Origin: Anaerocolumna aminovalerica
GTDB lineage: Bacteria > Bacillota > Clostridia > Lachnospirales > Lachnospiraceae
NCBI RefSeq assembly: GCF_900115365.1
Contig: NZ_FOWD01000004.1
Location: 1 to 64,000, forward strand
Length of the DNA stretch: 64,000 nt
Direction: 5' to 3'
Under the pieces are notes generated by a model, which was not told the DNA's origin, made no database searches, and saw only the letters and a program-made list of their open reading frames with translations. The position numbers and the translations under genes were made by a program. Within the stretch, counting starts at the first letter, position 1, and the number at the start of each line of letters is the position of its first letter. This document shows, in pieces, positions 1 through 10,380 of the stretch.

Positions 1-141
1 AAACATAGAACACCACCTGAAAAAGTATTTTAGATAGTTTTCCTCTGAACTGATAAACGTTACCGCCTTATTGCATATACGAAGTACCCTGAAAGGGTCA
101 ACATCCAACTTATTCGTAAACTGTTTATCAGACAGAGGCAT
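1..141 (-). CDS. Possible partial ORF running off the left edge
   Basis: The minus strand from an ATG at 141 stays open for 47 codons to the window edge. The same frame is open further upstream to about 198 without another start. The predicted residues look protein-like (for example DPFRVLRICNKA and NYLKYFFRWC), but I recognise no family. The same DNA also forms nested inverted repeats (42-138), so the open frame may be incidental. It could be the start or middle of a gene, perhaps a mobile-element gene, lying left of the window. Low confidence. Confidence 0.25.
   Translation of the reverse strand, partial: MPLSDKQFTNKLDVDPFRVLRICNKAVTFISSEENYLKYFFRWCSMF
42..138. repeat. Nested inverted repeats forming a three-level stem
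   Basis: CCTCTG (42-47) and CTGATAAAC (50-58) pair with GTTTATCAG (123-131) and CAGAGG (133-138), a 15-bp interrupted outer stem. Inside it TACGAA (78-83) pairs with TTCGTA (113-118), and inside that ACCCT (86-90) pairs with AGGGT (94-98) across a GAA loop. GAGGCAT (135-141) can instead pair with ATGCCTC (169-175), so two folds compete. It could be a structured RNA, a recombination or element end, or chance within a coding region. No known family is recognised. Confidence 0.4.
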
Positions 142-209
142 CAGTCTTTCGATAACGAGGTCATAAAAATGCCTCAAGGAGAAATCGATGTCACTCTATC
201 TAATACAAA

Positions 210-236
210 CATTATACAGAAACATTCTGTATAATG
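210..236. promoter_or_regulatory. 11-bp perfect palindrome upstream of the RiPP operon
   Basis: CATTATACAGA (210-220) and TCTGTATAATG (226-236) are perfect complements around a 5-nt spacer, about 70 bp before the precursor start. No T-run follows, so it is not an obvious terminator. A dimeric regulator's operator or a 5' RNA hairpin would both fit. TATAAT lies in the right arm, so it may also overlap a promoter. Confidence 0.4.
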
Positions 237-303
237 ATACAGTTAATAAAGGGTTATAGGTTACCTTTATCAACCTAAATATATTATATAAGGAATTATA
301 AAA

Positions 304-390
304 ATGAAGTATATTAGACCAACAGCTAAAGTTGTAAAAAGAATCAAGTGTGAAAAACCTGATGCGGCATACTGTGGATGCGCGTGCTAG
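304..390 (+). CDS. Cys-rich RiPP precursor-like peptide (28 aa)
   Basis: ATG at 304 follows AGGA (291-294) at normal spacing and ends at TAG 388-390. The peptide begins MKYIRPTAKVVKR, a basic leader-like stretch, has one Cys at residue 16, and ends in YCGCAC, so three of its four Cys crowd the C-terminus. Two radical SAM/SPASM genes and an ABC exporter follow on the same strand, the standard context for a modified peptide. The MKYI-x-P start loosely recalls the Clo7bot group of Cys-rich peptides, from memory and unverified. The mature product, cleavage site and modification type cannot be read from sequence. A chance ORF is unlikely given RBS, Cys cluster and context. Confidence 0.65.
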   Translation: MKYIRPTAKVVKRIKCEKPDAAYCGCAC

Positions 391-421
391 TTATTTGATT
401 AAATGTGAAAGAGGTGAAATC

Positions 422-523
422 GTGTTAAAGAAAAAAACAAAACAAAATATTAAGAAAGACAAAAAGAATAAAACATATGAATTACCATCTATGTTAGATA
501 AAAACGAACACAGTAAACTATAA
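422..523 (+). CDS. Small Lys-rich ORF (33 aa), possible second peptide
   Basis: GTG at 422 lies behind a good GAGGTG ribosome site (411-416), 31 bp after the precursor stop, and reads 33 residues to TAA 521-523. It is very basic in its first half (LKKKTKQNIKKDKKNK) and ends LDKNEHSKL, with no Cys. It could be a second peptide substrate, a small accessory or immunity factor, or a leader ORF controlling the hairpin that starts 11 nt after it. No family is recognised and function is unknown. Confidence 0.45.
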   Translation: MLKKKTKQNIKKDKKNKTYELPSMLDKNEHSKL

Positions 524-533
524 TACATCAGTG

Positions 534-583
534 TACAAGAAATGGTTAGTATATAAGAAACTAACCATTTCTTGTAATATTTT
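534..583 (+). terminator. Attenuator hairpin between peptide ORFs and maturase genes
   Basis: A perfect 17-bp stem (534-550 with 560-576) around a 9-nt loop is followed by AATATTTT. It sits after the small ORFs and just before the GGAGGAG site of the first radical SAM gene. Partial termination here would give much more peptide mRNA than enzyme mRNA, a common RiPP operon arrangement. The tail has only four consecutive T, so read-through is expected. Confidence 0.65.
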
Positions 584-593
584 GGAGGAGAGT

Positions 594-1903
594 ATGAATT
601 ATAACTTAAAAAAATACGTTAAAAAAAGATTAATGATAGTATTATATTAGTTCCTATTGATGATAATGTTGAGAGAAATTTTATTGAATTGAATGATACT
701 GGTGCTAACATTTTTGAAAAATTAGAAAATGGGTATTCAATAAATGATATTATAAATGAATTGAAAAAAATTTACATAGAAGAAACTGAAATCATTAAAA
801 ATGATGTCGAAGACTTCTTGTTATCGTTATTTAATTATGGAATTTTATCGTTAGAAGATCATGATATTGGTAGATATGATGAATTCGAATATGATATCAC
901 GGATGTATATAGCAAAATGCAAACATATTATTTTAAGAATAATATACCTTTTAAATTCTTTTTAGAATTAACTTATAATTGTAATCTAAGATGCCCTCAT
1001 TGCTATATTCAGGAAGATCTAACAAAAGAAAACGATTTTATAGATAAAAATATTGTATTTAAAACTATAAATCAAATTGAACAATTAGATGGTGTGGAAT
1101 TGATCATAACAGGCGGGGAAGCAACATTGCATCCAGATTTATTTGAGATTTTAGAATACGCTACTAGCAAAAATCTTCTTGTGACATTACTCACTAACGG
1201 ATTAAACTTATATGATGAAGAATACTTCGAGAGATTGATAACACTTCCATTAGTTGATATTAGGATCTCGTTATACGGAATAAGCAAAATTCATAATAAT
1301 TTTGTACATAAAACACAAGCTTTCGAAAGGTCATTCGAGGTTCTTAAAAAATTGAGAAAACGAAAGGGCTTAGGTACAGGAGTATATGTACTAACTAACT
1401 TTAATATAGATTGTCTAGATGAAGTGGTTAAGCTTGCAGAAACAAACGGCGTACCTATAGTAATCACCCCTACAATTATGGCTACCGCAAAGGGGGATAA
1501 AAAGCCTCTAGATTATCGCTTAAGCTATGACCAATTAAAATATTTTACAGGAAAATACTTAAAAAATTTGAATGGTTCTATATGTACAGCTGGTATTAGC
1601 CGATTCAGAATTACTCCAATGGGAGATGTTAACCCTTGTGAAATGATGAGGCATGTTAAAATCGGTAATATACATGATAATGATTTATTTGAAATTATGG
1701 AAAGTAAGTCAAGAAAAGAGTGGATTACATATTTTCATAAAATGAATAATGAACATGAATGCAACAATTGCAGTAAAAAGAAATTTTGTAACTATTGCCC
1801 TGGGTTGTTTCATGTCGAAAATGGTTCGTTTTTAACAAAAAGTTCTTTTGTATGTATGTTTACAAATCTTAAAAATGAATATGTACTTTCGATAGGAGAA
1901 TAG
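594..1903 (+). CDS. Radical SAM/SPASM peptide maturase with PqqD-like N-terminus, frame-shifted at an A7 run
   Basis: The best start is ATG 594 behind TTTGGAGGAG, but that frame stops at 648. The body lies in another frame, open from 623 to 1903. The two join if the A7 run at 621-627 has one more A or the ribosome slips -1. The joined protein is about 436 aa. Residues ~20-95 resemble a PqqD/RRE-like peptide-binding domain (IELNDTGANIFEKLENG). The radical SAM motif CNLRCPHC lies about 130 residues in. The C-terminus has SPASM-type cysteines (NPCEMMR, ECNNCSKKKFCNYCPG). It should bind a 4Fe-4S cluster with SAM plus auxiliary clusters and modify the upstream peptide. It could be inactive if the shift is a real mutation. 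A TTG at 689 would give a truncated 404-aa form. Confidence 0.75.
621..628 (+). other. A7G homopolymer slip site in the first radical SAM gene
   Basis: Seven A followed by G. The upstream frame from ATG 594 reads AAA AAA AGA, while the downstream coding frame reads AAG at 626. Adding one A, a -1 slip of tRNA-Lys, or polymerase slippage all restore one long reading frame. It may be programmed or transcriptional slippage, a phase-variable tract, a true inactivating deletion, or a sequencing error. Sequence alone cannot decide. Confidence 0.7.
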
Positions 1904-1904
1904 T

Positions 1905-3131
1905 ATGGAGATGCTAAAAGATATAAAATTTAATAATACTTTTGTTTTTCAAGGATTAGAAAAATATTTTGGATTAGATTGTGAATATTCTTATGAAGAT
2001 AAAAATGATCCATATATTGTACTTTTTGTTACAGATGAATGTAATTTAGATTGTAAATATTGTTTCTGTAAAAATAGTACAAGTATTAAGAATCATGTTC
2101 CTAAATATTCTTATCAGGATTTAGTTGAATTTTTAAATGTAAATAATTTTGATAATGGAACAATACGTTTCTTTGGTGGAGAACCATTACTAAATAAGAA
2201 ATGGATATTTGGATGTATTCAATATATAAAACAAAAGGGCTTAAACTTTAAGTACAACATTTTTACTAATGCAACACTAATTGATAAGAACTTCATAGAA
2301 TTGTGTAAAAAAGAGGATGTTATACTGTTCTTAAGTATAGAACCTAACATTGCCATTAGTAGTAGAATCGATAAAGAGGGAAATAATATTTATAATATTG
2401 TATGTGAAAATATTAAAATATTAAAAGAAAATAATTATTTAAATAAATGCATAATAAGAGCAGTTTACGATATTGATAAGAGTATGGATTTATTTGAGTT
2501 TGCAAAACAAATTATCGATTTGGGATTTCCAATGATTTCAATAACAATTCCTTGGACAACAAAAGGGACAAATATTATATTAAATGATGAAAAACTATTA
2601 ATATTTAGGGAGCAATTAGAACAATTTGTTAAGCACTACATTGAAAATATATTTAACAGAAATTTTAAGTATATAGGTATTCACCCATTTTGTTCTTATA
2701 TCAATTCCTGGTTTTCAGACGATGTATATTTAGATATTAATTCTTGTGGAGCAGGTAAGGACTTATATAGTATATCTACAGATGGAAATATATATCCATG
2801 TCATTCTTTTAATGGTATTGAAAGTTTTATAGAAGGAAATATAAAAAGCAAGGATAAAGTCAGGAGAATATTTGATGATATTAGTGCTTTAAATATAGAT
2901 AATTGTACTAATTGTATACTTAAGTATACTTGTAGATCAAGATGTTTAGCTGATTCATATTATTATAATGGTAGTATAGTAAAACCTAATTTATATAAAT
3001 GCTTTATAGAGAAAGAGATAGTTGCTGCTAGCGCACATATTTATCAAAATATAAAGAAACATACTAAATTACTAAATGTATACAAAAGATTGGTATCAAG
3101 GGGGTCAAATTATTATGGCGGAAATAACTGA
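1905..3131 (+). CDS. Second radical SAM/SPASM peptide maturase
   Basis: This 408-aa protein starts one base after the previous stop, with AGGAGAA as ribosome site. The radical SAM motif CNLDCKYCFC is at residues 46-55 and the GGEP motif (FFGGEPLL) follows about 50 residues later. The C-terminal SPASM region includes ISTDGNIYPCHSF, then NCTNCILKYTCRSRC and a last Cys in YKCF. That layout is usual for peptide-modifying SPASM enzymes. Unlike the first maturase it lacks an obvious N-terminal PqqD-like domain, so the first may present the substrate. It probably makes a second modification, such as a thioether, C-C bond or epimerisation. Which reaction cannot be told. Confidence 0.85.
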   Translation: MEMLKDIKFNNTFVFQGLEKYFGLDCEYSYEDKNDPYIVLFVTDECNLDCKYCFCKNSTSIKNHVPKYSYQDLVEFLNVNNFDNGTIRFFGGEPLLNKKWIFGCIQYIKQKGLNFKYNIFTNATLIDKNFIELCKKEDVILFLSIEPNIAISSRIDKEGNNIYNIVCENIKILKENNYLNKCIIRAVYDIDKSMDLFEFAKQIIDLGFPMISITIPWTTKGTNIILNDEKLLIFREQLEQFVKHYIENIFNRNFKYIGIHPFCSYINSWFSDDVYLDINSCGAGKDLYSISTDGNIYPCHSFNGIESFIEGNIKSKDKVRRIFDDISALNIDNCTNCILKYTCRSRCLADSYYYNGSIVKPNLYKCFIEKEIVAASAHIYQNIKKHTKLLNVYKRLVSRGSNYYGGNN

Positions 3132-3633
3132 TGAGATAATTATTTTACATAAAGTAACTAGTATTGAAGAAATGACTATTATAGATGAATATTGTAAAGA
3201 ATATGATTATAAAAAATATGTTGGGAATTCCAACTTAAATGAAACAAAATGCTATATTATTAAATATGATAATTCACCAATTGGATTTTGTGGATATTCA
3301 ATTAAAAGCGTAAATGATCAAATTATTACTTATCCATATATATACATAAAAAATAAAATAGCTAATCTATCTATCAGCAGTATGTTTAAACTTATATCTC
3401 ATATATTTAATGAAGAAAAATGTGATAAAATATTATTTACCGTATATTCGAATAATAAAAATATGATTGGTATTTTAAAGAAATTCCAGATTAAATGTGA
3501 AGGAATTTTTAAAAAATCAGTTATAATAGAGGATACATTATTGGATAAATATATTTATTCTATTCTATTTAGTGAATTTGAAAAATATAAAAATTTGGTG
3601 GATAATTTTATATGGAAGAAATATTCTTTTTAA
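3115..3633 (+). CDS. GNAT-like N-acetyltransferase
   Basis: ATG 3115 is preferred because AAGGGGG (3099-3105) sits at proper spacing. It gives 172 aa and overlaps the previous gene by 17 nt. An earlier ATG at 3076 lacks a clear site. The middle carries the GNAT pattern: SPIGFCGYSIK (strand 4 region), then CDKILFTVYSNNKNMIGILKKF followed by IKCEGIFKK, like the N-x-x-M-I-x-x-x-x-K-x-G-F-x-x-E-G motif of RimJ/RimL-type enzymes. It may acetylate the peptide or a glycosyl group, or confer self-resistance. No product data exist. A non-catalytic GNAT fold is possible. Confidence 0.6.
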   Translation: MAEITDEIIILHKVTSIEEMTIIDEYCKEYDYKKYVGNSNLNETKCYIIKYDNSPIGFCGYSIKSVNDQIITYPYIYIKNKIANLSISSMFKLISHIFNEEKCDKILFTVYSNNKNMIGILKKFQIKCEGIFKKSVIIEDTLLDKYIYSILFSEFEKYKNLVDNFIWKKYSF

Positions 3634-4157
3634 TATTTATATTTATATTTATTTTTAATAACAAAAAAAAATATATTATATTATTTTCGATTGCATTAAT
3701 AATTATTACAAATTATAAGCTTGATATAAGTTTTTATAAAATAGTATTCTTTTTATTAGGTATTATAATAGCGCCTATGGTAACCAATTTAACGTATTTG
3801 TTAACATATAAAAAAATTCTACCTTTAAATAAAAAGTATTTTAAAAAAGTATATATTAAATTAGATATAATTATAGATGTATTATTTGAGGAAATAATAT
3901 GGAGAGAAATTTTCATCAGATATATAATTAATAAATTTAAAAATGTATATCTAGAATTAATTATTATTTGCTTTTTAAGTTTTCTATTTGTAATAGCACA
4001 TAAAATAAGAAGTAAATTTCAATTTACTGAAATGTTTTTATATACTTTATTATTATCTTTTTCATCTTTGCTTTTAAATGGTATTAATTTTGGATTGCAT
4101 TTGGGAAGAAATAATTATGTCTCTTTTTTAGAAAGTGTGTGGAAAGATTATGAATAG
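3612..4157 (+). CDS. CPBP-family intramembrane protease (CAAX/Abi type)
   Basis: The 181-aa protein has about five hydrophobic segments and the three CPBP motifs: FEEIIWREIF (EExxxR), SFLFVIAHKI (FxxxH, second conserved motif) and a late HLGRNN. Members of this family are membrane-embedded proteases, and several sit in bacteriocin clusters as immunity or processing proteins. Its start overlaps the GNAT gene by 22 nt, so it is translationally coupled in the operon. Likely roles are leader removal during export or self-protection. It is somewhat short for the family, but the core motifs are present. Confidence 0.7.
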   Translation: MEEIFFLIFIFIFIFNNKKKYIILFSIALIIITNYKLDISFYKIVFFLLGIIIAPMVTNLTYLLTYKKILPLNKKYFKKVYIKLDIIIDVLFEEIIWREIFIRYIINKFKNVYLELIIICFLSFLFVIAHKIRSKFQFTEMFLYTLLLSFSSLLLNGINFGLHLGRNNYVSFLESVWKDYE

Positions 4158-4569
4158 TTTTAAAAATATAATATTTGATAAAAGCTTAATTAAATTTAAT
4201 TGGAATTCCATTAATTTTAAAATGAAGAATGCAAAAGTCATTAAGATTAAAAAAGATCAAACTAATGTATATTTAAAATATAGCGTAGAAGGATATTGGA
4301 TTAATTGTGTATTCGGAATAATTGAAATTAATACCCAGTTACAGGATGCTTTAATACACGCATGTAATTATTTGTTTAAAAAATATGTTGATGTTTTTAA
4401 AGTTACAATTTGCATATGGGAAGATGACCAAGCTAGTAGAGACTTTTTAACTAATATAGGATTTGAGCAAGAAGTAATAATTCGTGATTATATTATATTT
4501 GAAAATAAAAAATATAGCATAATTATTATGTCGATTTTTAGGGAGGACAAAAATGATCAAATTAGTTAA
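4150..4569 (+). CDS. Second GNAT-like protein
   Basis: ATG 4150 overlaps the CPBP stop by eight bases. An in-frame GTG at 4135 is an alternative. The 139-aa product has a GNAT-like C-terminal half: DDQASRDFLTNIGFEQEVIIRDYI resembles the acetyl-CoA site helix plus the I-G-F strand. The first half is less typical (YSVEGYWINCVFGIIEI), so the fold call rests mainly on the C-terminus. Two GNAT-like genes in one peptide operon are unusual. They might modify different residues or form a heterodimer. Function unproven. Confidence 0.5.
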   Translation: MNSFKNIIFDKSLIKFNWNSINFKMKNAKVIKIKKDQTNVYLKYSVEGYWINCVFGIIEINTQLQDALIHACNYLFKKYVDVFKVTICIWEDDQASRDFLTNIGFEQEVIIRDYIIFENKKYSIIIMSIFREDKNDQIS

Positions 4570-5233
4570 TGTAAATAAAAAAATAGGTAATGAATACATT
4601 CTTAAGAATGTTAATATAAGTTTCAATAATGGAAATATATATGCACTAATTGGACCAAATGGAGCGGGAAAAACTACAATTATAAGTATATTGTCAAAAT
4701 TAATGGAACCAGACACAGGTGATTTAATATATGAAAACGGGAGCAAGAATGTTTATTTGTTATTATCCGGTGAAAGAAATCTATATTATAAAATAACTGT
4801 GAAAGAGAATATTTATTATTTTGGAATTATAAGAGGTCTTTCTAAAAAGCAAATCAAAAATAATATAGATACCTATAAGGTAAAATGTGAAATAGAACAA
4901 TTATTTAATAAAAAAGTTGAAACTTTATCCTATGGGCAAAAGAGAATTGTTGCCACATTCATAGCTATGGTTTGTGGTAGTAAATGTATTATTTTAGATG
5001 AAGTAACAGAAGGATTAGATGTTGAATCAAAAACAATTTTGTCTAAAATGCTACTTGAAGTTAAAAAAGATAAAATTGTGATATTGGTTTCTCATGATTT
5101 GGAATTTATCGCAACTTGTACTGATTTTAATGTTTTTATAAAAGATGGAACGATAATTACAGTTAATGATAAAGTAGATGAACTAAAAACATTATATAAT
5201 CAATATATGCAATCAAAGGGGGAGTTACAATGA
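4553..5233 (+). CDS. ABC exporter ATP-binding protein
   Basis: 226 aa, ATG 4553 behind GGGAGGAC, overlapping the preceding gene by 17 nt. Walker A IGPNGAGKTT is at residues 34-43, the signature is LSYGQKR, and Walker B is CIILDE followed by a switch His (VSHDLEF). This is the type that pairs with ABC-2 permeases, and the permease gene overlaps it by the ATGA junction. Together they likely export the mature peptide or provide immunity. There is no fused C39 peptidase domain, so leader cleavage must be done by something else, perhaps the CPBP protein. Confidence 0.85.
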   Translation: MIKLVNVNKKIGNEYILKNVNISFNNGNIYALIGPNGAGKTTIISILSKLMEPDTGDLIYENGSKNVYLLLSGERNLYYKITVKENIYYFGIIRGLSKKQIKNNIDTYKVKCEIEQLFNKKVETLSYGQKRIVATFIAMVCGSKCIILDEVTEGLDVESKTILSKMLLEVKKDKIVILVSHDLEFIATCTDFNVFIKDGTIITVNDKVDELKTLYNQYMQSKGELQ

Positions 5234-5997
5234 GGTATATAAGAGCAATATTTGAGGAATATAAAATTAATATTCTAGAGTCTTTTAGCTATAAATTCGG
5301 GATTATTTCTGACATTCTAGTCTTTGGAATACTTCAAGTTTTCTTATTTTTTGCTAACACAGGTTCATCATTATCGAATACTTATAATTACAATAATAGT
5401 AAAGAACTTCTGCTTATTGGGTATATAACATGGATGCTTTCCTGCACGTGTATATCAAATATAGGTGGTGAAATTAAAAATGAAATGGCAATAGGAACCT
5501 TCTATCATAAAATAAATGTTGCGATACCTATACATATATTATATATTGGTAAGTTACTAGCTTCTATTACTATGCAAGTAATAACAATTAGTACATTAAT
5601 AATAATGTCAAATATTTTATTTGGTGTAGAGCTTAGTTTTAATTTTTATATAATTATTACTATACTGGTATGTATGAGTGGTATGTATGGCATCGGGTTA
5701 GCAATAGGTGGTTTCGCGGTGTATTATAAACAAATAAGTAGTATAATATTTATAATTCAATTGCTTTTATTATTTTCAACAGATGTATTAACAAAAAGTT
5801 CAATGTCATTATTCAAGTTTATACCATTAACATTTTGTATAGATCTGATTAGAAAATTAGCTTCAGGAGTGCATTTTAGCTCTTATGAGTACCTACTATA
5901 TATTATTATATGCTTTATTTTTTATTTATTAGGAGTTTTCGTGTTAAAATTTATGATAAAGTGCGCAAAAAGAAAAGGAAATTTACTACATTTTTAA
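5230..5997 (+). CDS. ABC-2 type permease, partner of the preceding ATPase
   Basis: 255 aa with about six hydrophobic spans (for example ILVFGILQVFLFFA, ITMQVITISTLIIMS, YLLYIIICFIFYLLGVF) and a basic tail (KCAKRKGN). The start overlaps the ATPase stop by four bases, the classic coupled pair. The length and layout fit ABC-2 permeases of antibiotic or bacteriocin exporters. It should form the membrane channel of the RiPP exporter or immunity pump. Confidence 0.8.
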   Translation: MRYIRAIFEEYKINILESFSYKFGIISDILVFGILQVFLFFANTGSSLSNTYNYNNSKELLLIGYITWMLSCTCISNIGGEIKNEMAIGTFYHKINVAIPIHILYIGKLLASITMQVITISTLIIMSNILFGVELSFNFYIIITILVCMSGMYGIGLAIGGFAVYYKQISSIIFIIQLLLLFSTDVLTKSSMSLFKFIPLTFCIDLIRKLASGVHFSSYEYLLYIIICFIFYLLGVFVLKFMIKCAKRKGNLLHF

Positions 5998-6029
5998 ATT
6001 TAAATAATATAATTAAAAGGAATGTATAT

Positions 6030-7097
6030 ATGAAAATAATGAGTATTTTACATGGTTCTTCATTTGGTGGAACAGAGCAACATATCCTTAATTTATTACC
6101 AGGGCTATCTAAAGGAGGAGTTGATTGTTGCGTATTAACGGATCAGCAGGATTTAATTAGAAAACTATGTACTAAGGGTATCGAAAATAGACATATAAGT
6201 TTTAATAATCCATATAAGGCAATTTTAGAATTAAGAAAATATATTGATAATAGGTGTGATATTGTGCATGCCCATAGAGTGGATAGTCTTGCATTTGTAG
6301 TTTTTGCACTAACAAATATAGACATCCCGATTATATGTACTATACATAGTATCTATAAAGATGAAATATTGCAAGTTACTGATCCTAAAAGTGGAAAAGT
6401 AATCTCTTTTAGTAGTAACTATTTGTTAAATAGAGTAAATACAATAGTAGCAATTTCAAACGCAGTAAAGCAGTCACTAATAAATGCAGGCATTAATGAA
6501 CATAAGATTAAAGTTATATTTAATGGTGTAGAAAAATCGTCTTGTGTAAAAACTTCTAGCAATTATAACTATACTATAGGTTTTGTCGGAAGATTGCACT
6601 ATGAAAAGGGTCCAGATATTTTAATAGATGCTTTTAAAATCTTAAACGATAAATACCCTAACTTAATGAGATTACATATTATTGGAGATGGTCCAATGAA
6701 GTCACAATTGATAGGATTTGTTAAAGCAAATGGTCTTGAGAGTTTATGCAAGTTCGAGGGTTATGTTTCAAATCCAATAGAAAAGTATTGTAATTTAGAT
6801 GTCCTTGTATTACCATCAAGAGAAGAAGGAATGGGTTTAGTACTGCTTGAAGCATTTAGTACTAAAGTACCTGTAATCGCAAGTGAAACTGGAGGAATTA
6901 AAGAACTGATTAATAATAATACGGGAATTCTTTTTGAGTGTGAGAATAGTAAAGCATTGGCTGAAAGTATAGAGTTGCTGTATAAATTTCCTGAGATATC
7001 AAAAAAACTAATTCAGAGTGCTTATGAATTATGGAAAAATAATTATACTGTGAATCATTTTGTACAGAAACATATAGATTTGTTAAATTGTATATAG
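6030..7097 (+). CDS. GT4-family glycosyltransferase
   Basis: ATG 6030 after AAAAGGA gives 355 aa. An upstream in-frame start at 5910 would overlap the permease and lacks a site. The N-terminus SSFGGTEQHILNLLPGL and the C-terminal EEGMGLVLLEAFSTKVPV (E-x7-E nucleotide-sugar motif) with ETGGIKELI are typical of GT-B fold family 4 enzymes. GFVGRLHYEKGPDILI marks the second Rossmann domain. It is the last gene of the island's operon and equally AT-rich. It could glycosylate the peptide, which would be unusual with radical SAM maturases and with a GT4 rather than a GT2 enzyme. It could also act on cell-wall glycans for immunity. Confidence 0.8.
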   Translation: MKIMSILHGSSFGGTEQHILNLLPGLSKGGVDCCVLTDQQDLIRKLCTKGIENRHISFNNPYKAILELRKYIDNRCDIVHAHRVDSLAFVVFALTNIDIPIICTIHSIYKDEILQVTDPKSGKVISFSSNYLLNRVNTIVAISNAVKQSLINAGINEHKIKVIFNGVEKSSCVKTSSNYNYTIGFVGRLHYEKGPDILIDAFKILNDKYPNLMRLHIIGDGPMKSQLIGFVKANGLESLCKFEGYVSNPIEKYCNLDVLVLPSREEGMGLVLLEAFSTKVPVIASETGGIKELINNNTGILFECENSKALAESIELLYKFPEISKKLIQSAYELWKNNYTVNHFVQKHIDLLNCI

Positions 7098-7262
7098 TGA
7101 ATACAAATAATGTTCTTTATTATATCAAGCAAAATAGTTTACTTTAGATAAATAGTAGTTTGTATTATTGTAATTGTATATTAATAAAAATGAGGGCAAG
7201 GAGAGATATTTAATAAATACACTCTTTTTATCATGCTGAAGTAAATGGTGGTTTATGTGTAA
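7098..7262. other. Intergenic stretch after the RiPP operon
   Basis: No gene is visible. AATACAAA near 7100 and TTTGTATT near 7160 are inverted copies that could close a weak hairpin after the glycosyltransferase, but no T-run follows. The stretch is AT-rich like the island. Confidence 0.3.
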
Positions 7263-7455
7263 TTAGACAAAGAATGCACCATTACTGGCGGTACATACCT
7301 GATTATTTAGCAACACTGGTTTGTGACATTCCTCAGGAAGTATTTCTGACCATTGTAGTAATTCTTTTATGAAATACAGGCGTATATCCTCCTGATGTTT
7401 CTTATTTTAGTGAGCAGATTTCCTGCTGTAGTTTATACAAATATTTTCGGCTATT
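7263..7455 (-). pseudogene. Decayed coding remnants of unknown origin
   Basis: On the minus strand, 7406 down to the stop at 7263-7265 reads a protein-like stretch (IRLYFIKELLQWSEILPEE, then NNQVCTASNGAFFV). Overlapping it, another frame reads NSRKYLYKLQQEICSLK and stops at 7402. Neither has a start codon or ribosome site, so these are tails of broken genes. I do not recognise the family. Confidence 0.4.
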
Positions 7456-7464
7456 TGGTTTTAT

Positions 7465-7715
7465 CTTTCTAAATAGTCCACCCATTCAGCTTTTAATTCC
7501 TCATAATTTTTTTGAAATACATCTTCACATTTTTCCATGTAGTACAGTAACTTAATACGGTATCAAAAGAATATGATATATCTGTGTATTTATATACTTC
7601 CCCTCTCAAGATATTAAATAGAGTATCTTTAGAAAACTTCTTTTAATCTCCTTTGGATATAAATGTACGATATCTTTTTTCAAGTAAGCATAGTAGTAAT
7701 ATACAATAGCTTACC
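7465..7715 (-). pseudogene. Frame-shifted remnant of an unknown protein gene
   Basis: Three consecutive minus-strand segments in different frames read as one protein: YYAYLKKDIVHLYPKEIK, then DTLFNILRGEVYKYTDISYS, then MEKCEDVFQKNYEELKAEW ending VDYLER and a stop near 7465. At least two frameshifts and no start codon show it is dead. The family is not recognised. A glycosyltransferase C-terminus is a guess only. It lies directly beside the insertion sequence, consistent with a decaying region. Confidence 0.45.
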
Positions 7716-7806
7716 TTTACTTATATTTATTTCCAATATTTACGTTGATGAGCTCTCATCTTTTTTATTTGGAACCTTTTACGTTGTAGAATTTTATTAT
7801 AAGCAG

Positions 7807-7832
7807 CAACTTTAAAAGATAAGATAATTTCT
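7807..7832 (+). repeat. Left direct repeat flanking the insertion sequence
   Basis: The 26 bases 7807-7832 recur exactly at 8898-8923, bracketing the transposase gene. About 24 of them (7809-7832) are outside the likely element ends. This is the expected footprint of target-site duplication, but it is long for the IS481 family. Confidence 0.85.
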
Positions 7833-8899
7833 TGTTGGTTTGTCAAACATATGTTACACCATACTTCAAGAAATTCATGAGAGTAGTTCTAGGAGATTTC
7901 CATCCTAGAGGTCTCATTGGAAAGTTATTATAATCCCTTCGGTTATATATACTTAGCTGCTTTGAGAAGTCATCAAAAGAAAAGAAACTGTGTGTAGCAT
8001 AGAATCTTTCATTATCTTTCCGATGACTGCGTTCCACTTTACCATTATGTCTTGGTGTGAATGGACGGATTAATTTATGCTTAATTCCTAAAGATTGTAG
8101 CTTTTTTTCAAACATGGAAGGGTCTGTCTTATTACTTCCAAATCTCTTTGTGAATTCAAAGCCATTGTCTGTTTGTATACACTCAATGGGCATAGGGAAG
8201 GCCTTAATCAAATGCTCAAGGAATTGAGTAGAAGTATAAGTGCTGGACTCGTTAAACGCCTCTACAAAACGAAATCTGGAGTATTCATCAATAGCAGTGT
8301 ATTGATAGAATTTCTGTCCTTTCGCATCACCAACGATACAGGCAGTTGGAACGTGTTTCACATCGACTTGTACACGCTGGCCAGGATATTTCATTTGCTC
8401 ATAAGGCTTGGGAATATATTTTGGGTTAGGTGGTTTAACAGCCATTAACTTTTCTTTTCTAAGAAAGCGATATAAACCCGGAATAGAACGTTTGTATCCA
8501 CGTTGCATGAGCTTTACCCAAAAGACAACAAGGCCTTCATGTGGATTACGGCGCCGCATATCATGAATAAGTTTTATTTCAGCCTCGGTATGTTGATTGG
8601 GGTGTGAATGAGGTCTACGTGATAGATCTCGTAAAGACTCCATAGAGCCATCAAAGCGACGTTTCCAACGGTAGATGTATTGTCGGTTGGTCTTATATTT
8701 GACAGCAGCTTTGGTTACACCAAATTTTTCAGCATATTTAATTAATGATAGACGGTATCTCATATCTTGTGTTATACTAGCCATACGGAAACGCTCCTTT
8801 GTTGATGTTTTGGTTGTGGTGATTAAAATATAACACAAAAGAGATGTTTCCGTATTTTATTTTCTTTTAAATGTAACACATGTATTGTAATCCTACACA
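7833..8899 (-). mobile_element. IS481/IS1202-like insertion sequence (~1067 bp)
   Basis: The element starts TGTTGG at 7833 and ends CTACACA at 8899, so both ends read TGT inward. The two ends share an imperfect inverted repeat, best seen as ATATGTTACA against CATGTGTTACA about 20 bp inside. It holds one transposase gene and is framed by a 24-26 bp direct repeat. The ends and size fit IS481. A target duplication this long is better known from the IS1202 group, so the exact family needs a database comparison. Confidence 0.8.
7843..8784 (-). CDS. IS481-type DDE transposase
   Basis: ATG at 8784 follows AAAGGAG at 9-nt spacing and gives 313 aa. A longer start at 8838 has no site. The N-terminus has a helix-turn-helix (FGVTKAAVKYKTNRQYIYRW). 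The rve integrase core follows with the catalytic triad: VQVDVKHV (first Asp), CIQTDNGFEF (second Asp) and HNGKVERSHRKDNERFY (Glu). The reading frame is intact and its stop lies 10 bp from the element end, so the element may still be mobile. Confidence 0.88.
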   Translation of the reverse strand: MASITQDMRYRLSLIKYAEKFGVTKAAVKYKTNRQYIYRWKRRFDGSMESLRDLSRRPHSHPNQHTEAEIKLIHDMRRRNPHEGLVVFWVKLMQRGYKRSIPGLYRFLRKEKLMAVKPPNPKYIPKPYEQMKYPGQRVQVDVKHVPTACIVGDAKGQKFYQYTAIDEYSRFRFVEAFNESSTYTSTQFLEHLIKAFPMPIECIQTDNGFEFTKRFGSNKTDPSMFEKKLQSLGIKHKLIRPFTPRHNGKVERSHRKDNERFYATHSFFSFDDFSKQLSIYNRRDYNNFPMRPLGWKSPRTTLMNFLKYGVTYV

Positions 8900-8923
8900 A
8901 CTTTAAAAGATAAGATAATTTCT
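8898..8923 (+). repeat. Right direct repeat flanking the insertion sequence
   Basis: Exact copy of 7807-7832. The next bases lead straight into the promoter at 8928, so the insertion landed just upstream of the importer operon's promoter without separating it from its genes. Confidence 0.85.
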
Positions 8924-8927
8924 GGTA

Positions 8928-8956
8928 TTGACATTGTGCAAAAATGTTATTATAAT
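8928..8956 (+). promoter_or_regulatory. Consensus sigma-A promoter of the ABC importer operon
   Basis: TTGACA at 8928-8933, a 17-bp spacer and TATAAT at 8951-8956 match the sigma-A consensus perfectly. The first long gene starts at 9247, leaving an untranslated leader of about 280 nt. Confidence 0.85.
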
Positions 8957-8962
8957 GAGGAT

Positions 8963-9246
8963 AATATAAAGATTATTATTCAATTTATTTATATAAAGTT
9001 ATTATATAATCGCAAATAAGTTTATAGTGCATAAATACGGAATTAAATATTTACACTAGTTTGTGCATTTTTATTTTGCATGTTATCCATTAGGCTGTTT
9101 AATACATATTACATACTGAGTAAGGAGATCCATTATAATGAAGCTTACTTTTTATTATCCAAAGTTATTTGCATTTCGCATGTAATTGATTATTTAAGAT
9201 ACCTTTTAAATAATTATTACAATATATATCAATAAGGAGGATAAGT
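8963..9246 (+). promoter_or_regulatory. Long 5' leader with short upstream ORF and hairpin
   Basis: The leader holds a 15-codon ORF (9138-9185, MKLTFYYPKLFAFRM) behind a strong TAAGGAG (9121-9127), followed by an ATTATTTAA/TTAAATAAT inverted repeat near 9188-9213. An upstream ORF with a better ribosome site than many genes suggests attenuation or translational coupling. No known riboswitch signature (TPP, T-box, purine) is visible. Confidence 0.45.
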
Positions 9247-10380
9247 ATGAAGAAAATGTGGAACAAGATAGTAATGATCTTATTTGCTATGACATTACTA
9301 GCAATTTTTACCGTAGGATGCAGTAAAAAGGAAGATAAGACAAAATCTACGGATGCAAATTCAACCCAATCAAATGAAAAAAAGGAAGAAGCGGGGGCAG
9401 GAGAAGAAGCAAAAGAGAAGACAACGAAAGAAAAAACAATAGTTACTGTTTACACAGGCCGTGATAGTGCAGTTCTTGAGTATATTGAACCATTATTTGA
9501 AGAAGCACATCCGGAATATGATGTAGAATTCCTAAATATGGGTGCTCAAGAGATTTTAGAGCGTGTCCGTGGTGAAAAAGAAAATCCCCAGGGTGATTTC
9601 TGGTGGGGAGGTACACAAGCAGCATTTGAAATAGCTTCATCGGAAGATTTACTAGAAGTATATCGTCCAAGTTTTGCAGATAGTTTTCCTGAAGAATATA
9701 AAGATGCTGGAGATCGCTGGTATGGTGAAATTCTTCTTCCGGAAGTAATTATGTACAATACCGACATGTTAACCGGTGATGATATTCCAAAGGACTGGGA
9801 GGATTTACTGGATGCAAGATATAAGGATCAGATATTGATTCGTAATGTTCTACCTTCCGGAACTATGAGAACTATTTATAGCTGTATGATTGCAAAAGAA
9901 GATGCATCCAATCCTGAAAAAGGTTATGAATGGCTTAGAAAGCTGGATGCCAATACCAAAGAATATACCCAGGACCCTACCAATCTTTATTTAAAGATGA
10001 CTCGTCAGGAAGGTTCTTTATCCTTATGGAATTTACAAGATATTATGATTCAGAAGATGACCAATAATCAACCATTTGGTTATGTAATGCCAGAAAGTGG
10101 TGCACCAATACTGGTAGATGCCGTTGCAATTGTAAAAGGTGCTAAGAACTTGGAAGGTGCAAAAGCTTTTTATGAATTTATTTTTAATGATAAGATTCGT
10201 CTGGATTTAGCAGAGAATATGTTCCAGATTCCAGCTCAGGCTAATATTCCAAAAGAACAGCTTCCTCAATGGATACAAGATTTGGATTTAAGAGCCATGG
10301 AAGTGAATTGGAAGGTTATTGCTGAAAAAGAAATGGAATGGATGACTTATTGGGACGAGAATATAAAAGATAAAAATTAA
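9247..10380 (+). CDS. ABC importer substrate-binding lipoprotein (AfuA/FbpA-like)
   Basis: 377 aa, ATG 9247 after AAGGAGG. A basic n-region and hydrophobic core lead to the lipobox TVGC (Cys 25), so it is a membrane-anchored lipoprotein. A low-complexity Lys/Glu linker follows (residues ~30-60). The rest resembles type-2 periplasmic binding proteins of the ferric-iron/thiamine/hexose-phosphate group: VYTGRDSAVLEYIEPLFEE near the start, FWWGGTQAAFEIA, and a late GAKAFYEFIF. Members bind Fe3+, sugar phosphates, phosphonates or polyamines. The neighbouring lyase and kinase favour an organic ligand over iron here. Confidence 0.85.
   Translation: MKKMWNKIVMILFAMTLLAIFTVGCSKKEDKTKSTDANSTQSNEKKEEAGAGEEAKEKTTKEKTIVTVYTGRDSAVLEYIEPLFEEAHPEYDVEFLNMGAQEILERVRGEKENPQGDFWWGGTQAAFEIASSEDLLEVYRPSFADSFPEEYKDAGDRWYGEILLPEVIMYNTDMLTGDDIPKDWEDLLDARYKDQILIRNVLPSGTMRTIYSCMIAKEDASNPEKGYEWLRKLDANTKEYTQDPTNLYLKMTRQEGSLSLWNLQDIMIQKMTNNQPFGYVMPESGAPILVDAVAIVKGAKNLEGAKAFYEFIFNDKIRLDLAENMFQIPAQANIPKEQLPQWIQDLDLRAMEVNWKVIAEKEMEWMTYWDENIKDKN

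Follow-up and report, generated by a model that had tools for sequence, protein, structure and literature searches.

Does the gene block at the start of a contig of Anaerocolumna aminovalerica still make the cross-linked peptide for which it appears to be built, and what would this peptide look like? The block lies in a window of 64,000 nucleotides, the first 64 kb of the 217-kb contig NZ_FOWD01000004.1, in a genome of 4.62 Mb (83 contigs, 99.86% complete). Between positions 304 and 7097, all on the plus strand, it holds a 28-residue peptide, a Lys-rich open reading frame (ORF), two radical S-adenosylmethionine (SAM) enzymes (rSAM1 and rSAM2), a GNAT-like protein (GNAT1), a CPBP protein, a second GNAT candidate, an ABC transporter ATPase, an ABC-2 type permease and a GT4 glycosyltransferase, in this order. 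An earlier note on this DNA had described a radical SAM locus for a ribosomally synthesized and post-translationally modified peptide (RiPP), with an unusual gene set, an atypical composition and tailoring by the GNAT and GT4 enzymes; type, gene set and composition stand, while the tailoring role is unproved. Tentatively, and with somewhat less than even confidence, we read the block as an orphan variant of the radical SAM thioether RiPPs in which two enzymes would cooperate, and which was acquired and is now attenuated or off in this strain. The operon is real and rare; that it functions in the sequenced strain is doubtful.

The tight coupling of the genes that had been pointed out is visible in the overlaps at 3115-3131, 3612-3633, 4150-4157, 4553-4569 and 5230-5233, and only 1 nt separates rSAM1 from rSAM2. 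The block is also AT-rich, as had been noted: the 1-kb bins of positions 1-7000 have a GC fraction of 0.194-0.300, versus 0.297-0.422 beyond 8000. The genes from rSAM1 to GT4 have a GC fraction at third codon positions (GC3) of 0.137-0.227, and 32 other ORFs of the window average 0.280 (standard deviation 0.035, minimum 0.204); the precursor, with 29 codons only, has a GC3 of 0.345. A mosaic origin of the block, based on a GC3 of 0.367 for rSAM1, was rejected, as this value came from the wrong frame and the correct frame gives 0.227. Probably, the operon was acquired horizontally.

The 28-residue Cys-rich peptide ending in YCGCAC, already picked out in the earlier note, is indeed encoded here, and its Shine-Dalgarno sequence AAGGA stops 9 nt before the ATG. 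An ORF of this kind (plus strand, 20-60 residues, at least four Cys, at least three of them in the last six residues) arose in only 6 of 20000 simulated 700-nt sequences with the first-order composition of window 1-700, while the real stretch contains one on the plus strand and none on the minus strand. Residues 16-20 read CEKPD, a single Cys-X3-Asp motif (Cys16, Asp20) of the Cys-X3-Asp/Glu type that marks precursors of PapB-type ranthipeptides. No Pfam or NCBIfam model matched the peptide at E <= 1. The Lys-rich ORF of 33 residues that follows has its own ribosome-binding site, contains no Cys and found no family match in Pfam or NCBIfam.

Both maturases are SPASM radical SAM proteins, as had been claimed: rSAM1 matches PF04055 at 3.7e-20 and the SPASM family PF13186 at 1.2e-9, and rSAM2 matches PF04055 at 1.3e-11 and the SPASM model TIGR04085 at 6.2e-12 (PF13186 only at 0.019, under its cut-off). 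The two point to different families. The best NCBIfam match of rSAM2 is the ranthipeptide maturase PapB (NF047865, 3e-46, 158.2 bits), while it stays under the cut-off for SCIFF maturases (TIGR03974, 128.8 bits versus 425); the solved structure nearest to it by sequence is PDB 5wgg (4.6e-30), which we take to be CteB. Its radical SAM core starts at residue 38, and the 37 residues before it leave no room for an N-terminal RiPP recognition element (RRE). PapB links the Cys sulfur to the Asp C-beta in CX3D motifs, works on a minimal one-motif substrate and tolerates Cys-Xn-Asp with n = 0-6 (PMC9413430; here and below, cited statements follow the parts of the papers that were accessible). A Cys16-Asp20 link is thus the natural prediction for rSAM2, the motif by itself being weak evidence. 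Among PDB entries, phmmer places SkfB (6efn, 2.9e-12) closest to rSAM1. The best 25 of its 66 NCBIfam matches are all under their cut-offs, including the curated sactipeptide maturases StsB (71.2 bits, cut-off 625), SkfB (66.3, 300) and AlbA (60.1, 850). Across the genome, PF05402 (PqqD) was matched at a single place, 647-847 in rSAM1, which makes this enzyme the carrier of the RRE; RREs missed by the Pfam PqqD model may exist. Together, the CxxxCxxC core, SPASM, RRE, short precursor and exporter give the locus the broad features of a radical SAM/SPASM RiPP system, with the peculiarity that the RRE and its ATG are in different frames.

How is this leader-binding domain broken? The PqqD frame is open from position 623, and its first ATG, GTG or TTG is the TTG at 689, which already lies within the domain. 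Read from 623, PqqD scores E 1.2e-9 over profile positions 7-67, compared with 3.1e-7 and 15-67 when read from 689; because the longer read scores better and over more of the profile, the PqqD sequence extends back past any usual start codon to a run of seven A (A7). At this run, the frame of the well-placed ATG 594 and that of PqqD diverge. No second break was seen in the ORFs of the operon. In the ruminococcin C system, RumMC2 without its RRE still cleaved SAM but left the peptide unmodified, with no thioether, and an RRE supplied in trans gave less than 10% conversion; similar RRE results are given for ThnB and freyrasin (PMC8188230). TrnC and TrnD act as a complex in which, by an AlphaFold model, TrnC alone possesses a canonical RRE (PMC12093266). 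By analogy with RumMC2 and TrnC/TrnD, the break in the RRE could stop both enzymes.

A mobile element borders the operon on its left. Window 1-294 occurs in five copies in the genome, this one included, which are 100% identical (one of them over 14-294) and all situated at contig ends. A longer copy (L096) continues as MFYLGIDIGKN, and an E. casseliflavus plasmid carries DNA 75.7% identical to window 41-188, with an annotated IS110 transposase beginning MFYIGIDIGKRSH in the same place. The assignment to the IS110 family comes from these first 11 transposase residues and from the likeness of the non-coding DNA. A PF01548 search of the genome found four IS110 transposase places, none of which (0/4) shares a 20-mer with window 1-294, so that the assembly lacks the main part of this element. 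The IS110 end abuts the Shine-Dalgarno site of the precursor and separates the gene from the DNA that was originally upstream. An Rfam scan of 1-9300 yielded nothing at the gathering threshold; promoter-like sites (91 versus 75.4 +/- 9.6 in shuffled sequences) and terminator-like sites (5 versus 2.0 +/- 1.4) were counted and not used.

We speculate that in the intact pathway the PqqD/RRE of rSAM1 would bind the N-terminal leader of the precursor, about 14 residues, and that rSAM2 would borrow the leader held there. Then rSAM2 would close the Cys16-Asp20 thioether, at a loss of 2 Da, and rSAM1 would act on the C-terminal CGCAC tail, most likely forming thioethers of the sactionine type, which join the Cys sulfur to a C-alpha. 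The ABC-2 pair would export the product, the CPBP protein might serve in leader removal or immunity, and the GNAT and GT4 proteins might cap or decorate the peptide. As the RRE frame is broken at A7 and the IS110 element has cut off the original upstream DNA, the pathway probably runs at a reduced level or not at all in this strain. In favour of this reading, we count the unusual Cys-rich ORF, which has a ribosome-binding site and immediately precedes the maturases, the PapB match of rSAM2 together with the ability of PapB to use a single CX3D motif, the SkfB match and the sole PqqD match in rSAM1, the TrnC/TrnD and RumMC2 precedents, the PqqD homology that reaches back to A7 and the IS110 end at the precursor. 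Several points weigh on the other side. The best NCBIfam match of rSAM1 is a mycofactocin maturase (5.7e-28) and not a sactipeptide one, and rSAM2 falls short of a curated PapB, with 158.2 bits versus a cut-off of 340. As the precursor contains four Cys and a single Asp, its CX3D motif could easily have arisen by chance, and no relative in the searched samples shows the pairing of substrate and enzymes to be conserved. Misassembly could account for the A7 break, or slippage could get round it, and the IS110 element leaves the precursor with a ribosome-binding site. Readings overlap, e.g. an attenuated pathway and a relic, so the weights given to them do not add up to a whole.

The alternative that survives best, although we hold it to be unlikely, is that A7 stems from an error in sequencing or assembly, in which case the operon would be intact and functional. 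This would agree with a single break, located in a homopolymer, in a gene that is otherwise open; however, the placement of the five IS110 copies at contig ends is that of short-read assemblies, and short reads seldom miscount an A7 run. Only slightly less room is left for a functional break, in which slippage at A7 (transcriptional or single-tRNA) or phase variation would switch an RRE-competent rSAM1 and make the locus an on/off system. The good Shine-Dalgarno sequence and ATG 594 in the other frame, the PqqD frame that is open directly past A7 and the otherwise unbroken operon speak for such a switch, but A7 is commonplace (26 A7 and 6 T7 runs in the window) and no relative turned up in the searched samples to show its conservation. 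Canonical dnaX-type -1 frameshifting, which has a phase requirement, was rejected as the mechanism because it is the rSAM1 frame, not that of ATG 594, with which the heptamer A_AAA_AAG (622-628) is in phase. We consider it improbable as well that the operon is a decaying relic that makes no product, its promoter removed by IS110 and one maturase disabled by the frameshift: the IS110 end at the precursor Shine-Dalgarno site, the frame break and a transposase gene on the right would fit, yet from rSAM2 through GT4 all ORFs are uninterrupted and closely packed, and the element keeps the ribosome-binding site and might supply a promoter. Least of all do we expect that the 28-residue ORF is not the substrate and that the enzymes act instead on the Lys-rich peptide, likewise preceded by a ribosome-binding site, or on some protein encoded elsewhere, since, for all its missing conservation support, the 28-residue ORF has a Cys content and placement rare in simulated sequence, carries a CX3D motif that fits the best family of rSAM2 and stands first in the operon.

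Is the maturase pair found in other genomes? We searched taxon samples that overlap and are drawn from larger groups. For rSAM2, the only hit in the order (1/392 genomes at 1e-40) and in the phylum (1/299 at 1e-40) was its own genome; in the class, 11 of 291 genomes (at 1e-35) and in the genus 10 of 15 (at 1e-30) gave matches, own genome included, the others at 25-33% identity. A SCIFF peptide (small Cys-rich ATG ORFs, one strand) lies beside 3 of 10 of these class loci and 4 of 9 genus loci. rSAM1 likewise found its own genome only, in the order (1/295 at 1e-35) and in the phylum (1/398 at 1e-28). Pattern-seeded scans, which detect close relatives only, gave no related stretch for rSAM2 (0/24 from genome contigs, 0/3 from viral contigs), and for rSAM1, where viral contigs were covered, two of six stretches matching at 31% over residues 87-183. 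The precursor pattern Cx3Dx3CGCxC followed by TAA or TAG occurred in 65 stretches (50 genome, 15 viral), none with either enzyme at tblastn 1e-3. The looser pattern C-[GA]-C-[GA]-C plus TAA or TAG was present in 27 of 295 order genomes at 31 places, compared with 16 places for the reversed control pattern, and among 30 such loci either enzyme matched by tblastn only in the own locus and in two overlapping loci of genome G219. This G219 locus was rejected as a relative: it has CGC-rich peptides beside a radical SAM gene, yet it is a different system. By eye, contig 27 of G219 (L129, reverse strand 459-9929) holds two radical SAM ORFs, three CGC-rich peptides and two ABC transporter ORFs. In phages and plasmids, tblastn with the enzymes gave nothing of at least 60% identity (22-39% among the matches listed), and the precursor had no match in plasmids. 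An Anaerococcus plasmid, the first-listed plasmid match of both enzymes, was rejected too, as the systems on it are different and the two enzymes are widely separated. Hence, in the sampled genomes we found no homologous maturase pair and no close relative of the peptide or of either enzyme.

The left edge also suggests a habit of the IS110 element itself. In all five genome copies, the shared part ends in ATATTATATAAGGA and a start codon follows 1-12 nt further on; the longest frames past the four other copies have 473, 368, 410 and more than 497 codons, whereas here the 28-residue precursor follows. The junction base is G in the four other copies (AAGGAG) and A here (AAGGAA), and because AAGGA is common to all five, the boundary between element and target cannot be placed. 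The E. casseliflavus element ends in ...TATACAAGGAG, followed by ATG. We compared nine further records, seven enterococcal copies and two remoter relatives (L147, L148). By eye, six of the seven enterococcal copies, two of them with an identical junction, show a purine-rich Shine-Dalgarno-like stretch and a start codon past the end, L149 being the exception, a lenient count given that a strict scripted motif (AGGAG, AAGGA, GGAGG or GAGGT) was found in one of the seven (L142). Annotated features start at the junction in L142, L143, L145 and L146. In L147 the junction is unclear; L148 has a gene start nearby and an element end that is not placeable. Thus, this IS110 subfamily seems to tend to insert at Shine-Dalgarno-like sites just before start codons, as judged from these junctions. 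An inner CAAGG(A/G)G is kept in 4/4 aligned non-coding ends; RNA in the transposase direction would read C(U/C)CCUUG, complementary to AAGG(A/G)G and therefore an anti-Shine-Dalgarno segment. IS110-group elements mostly encode a bridge RNA with a target-binding loop in their left end (PMC11208160), and we infer a putative Shine-Dalgarno-targeting guide in the non-coding end of this subfamily. In the mostly open-access literature, judged by titles and the starts of abstracts, we found no report of IS110 insertion at Shine-Dalgarno sites. An RNA-guided element family that targets the ribosome-binding site would land directly before genes, which may matter more than the operon. A 95.8% match to the final 48 bp of the IS110 end lies in Fusobacterium vincentii (L135, 2501-2547), and none of the four ORFs of at least 150 codons listed for this region resembles an IS110 transposase.

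The remaining genes vary in how firmly they are assigned (see the table). The ABC-2 exporter pair is present as claimed, both partners being matched by Pfam, and so is the GT4 enzyme (PF13439 1.3e-22, PF00534 4.7e-36), with NCBIfam matches under cut-off to TIGR03088 (2.6e-31) and TIGR04157. The claimed CPBP protease holds, if weakly, with PF02517 at 9.4e-6 and 26.3 bits, just above the cut-off of 22.4. Of the two GNAT-like proteins that had been proposed, GNAT1 has weak support (PF00583 0.015 and PseH 1.3e-5, both under cut-off; acetyltransferase phrog_1249 5.8e-4) and the second is not established: it matches phrog_4470, an acyl-CoA N-acyltransferase, at 0.008, found no acetyltransferase at E <= 1 by phmmer versus PDB and has no detectable likeness to GNAT1. 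Single-sequence models of both were poor (mean predicted local distance difference test scores of 49.3 and 40.7), and with these models Foldseek gave no match at E <= 0.001, GNAT1 reaching some acetyltransferases at E 0.08 and above. On the right of the island, 7098-9246 has just partial matches elsewhere in the genome, at 97%, 81% and 83% over about 117-212 bp each.

Table. Positions of the operon genes and of the mobile elements flanking them in the window.
Feature	Positions	Strand	Evidence
IS110-family element, 5' non-coding end and first two transposase codons; transposase runs off the contig start	1..294	-	
Precursor peptide MKYIRPTAKVVKRIKCEKPDAAYCGCAC, 28 residues	304..390	+	ORF list
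Lys-rich ORF, 33 residues, GTG start, GAGGTG upstream	422..523	+	between precursor and maturase
rSAM1 apparent start: GGAGG, ATG, 18 codons, stop	594..650	+	ORF/frame reading
A7 run where the ATG 594 and rSAM1/PqqD frames diverge	621..627	+	
rSAM1 open frame: PqqD (RRE), radical SAM, SPASM	623..1903	+	profile matches
rSAM2, radical SAM/SPASM	1905..3131	+	best NCBIfam match PapB ranthipeptide maturase
GNAT-like acetyltransferase 1	3115..3633	+	weak matches only
CPBP/Rce1-like membrane protease, weak	3612..4157	+	
Possible second GNAT, unproved	4150..4569	+	PF13420 0.003, under cut-off
ABC transporter ATPase	4553..5233	+	PF00005 4.4e-22
ABC-2 type permease	5230..5997	+	PF01061 4.5e-9
GT4 glycosyltransferase	6030..7097	+	
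Transposase/integrase ORF, open, rve domain, right of the island	7843..8838	-	PF00665 2.1e-13; phrog_8463 transposase 7.1e-33

If the pairing of peptide and enzymes is true, two unlike radical SAM maturases would work on a very short precursor through a single leader-binding domain that they share, which would offer a compact substrate for cross-link chemistry. A bolder version, to which we give little credence, is an undescribed RiPP class that would combine a Cys-Asp beta-thioether made by rSAM2 with a second type of cross-link made by rSAM1 on CGCAC, followed by acylation, glycosylation and A7 switching in the shared leader-binding domain. More generally, an AT-rich natural-product operon flanked by mobile elements provides an example of capture, then perhaps of silencing.

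How does the locus compare with known systems? No description of this gene set, i.e. a radical SAM RiPP with acetyltransferases or glycosyltransferases, was found in the mostly open-access literature, again by titles and abstract starts. Dual SPASM maturation, one element of the combination for which the earlier note knew no described class, is not new in itself, as thuricin CD and thuricin Z (PMC12093266) and ruminococcin C (PMC8188230) already involve two radical SAM enzymes. Like the thuricin CD and thuricin Z loci, ours has two radical SAM maturases, and like TrnC/TrnD it has one canonical RRE; unlike in thuricin CD, where TrnA and TrnB are the substrates of two sactisynthases, TrnC and TrnD, the two enzymes here differ in their best families and face one Cys peptide. 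TIGR04157 (glyco_rSAM_CFB) describes GT4 enzymes at radical SAM peptide loci of Bacteroidales. Radical SAM RiPP regions with glycosyltransferases are reported from this order (PMC10352776). As at TIGR04157 loci, GT4 lies beside a radical SAM maturase and matches the model at 2.3e-22, but with 79.6 bits versus a cut-off of 400, with better matches to other GT4 models and with no GG-type precursor seen. With SCIFF and its maturases ScfB and CteB, the locus shares a Cys-rich peptide adjoining the enzyme and 5wgg as the structure nearest to rSAM2; it differs in that rSAM2 is under the SCIFF maturase cut-off and the precursor is without a model match. From the freyrasin pair PapA/PapB it departs in several respects: PapA has six motifs versus one here (PMC9413430), and rSAM2 is under the PapB cut-off and has no room for an RRE. 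It resembles freyrasin in the best curated match of rSAM2, which is PapB, and in the Cys-X3-Asp motif of the precursor, to which the present locus adds a second radical SAM enzyme and a CGCAC tail.

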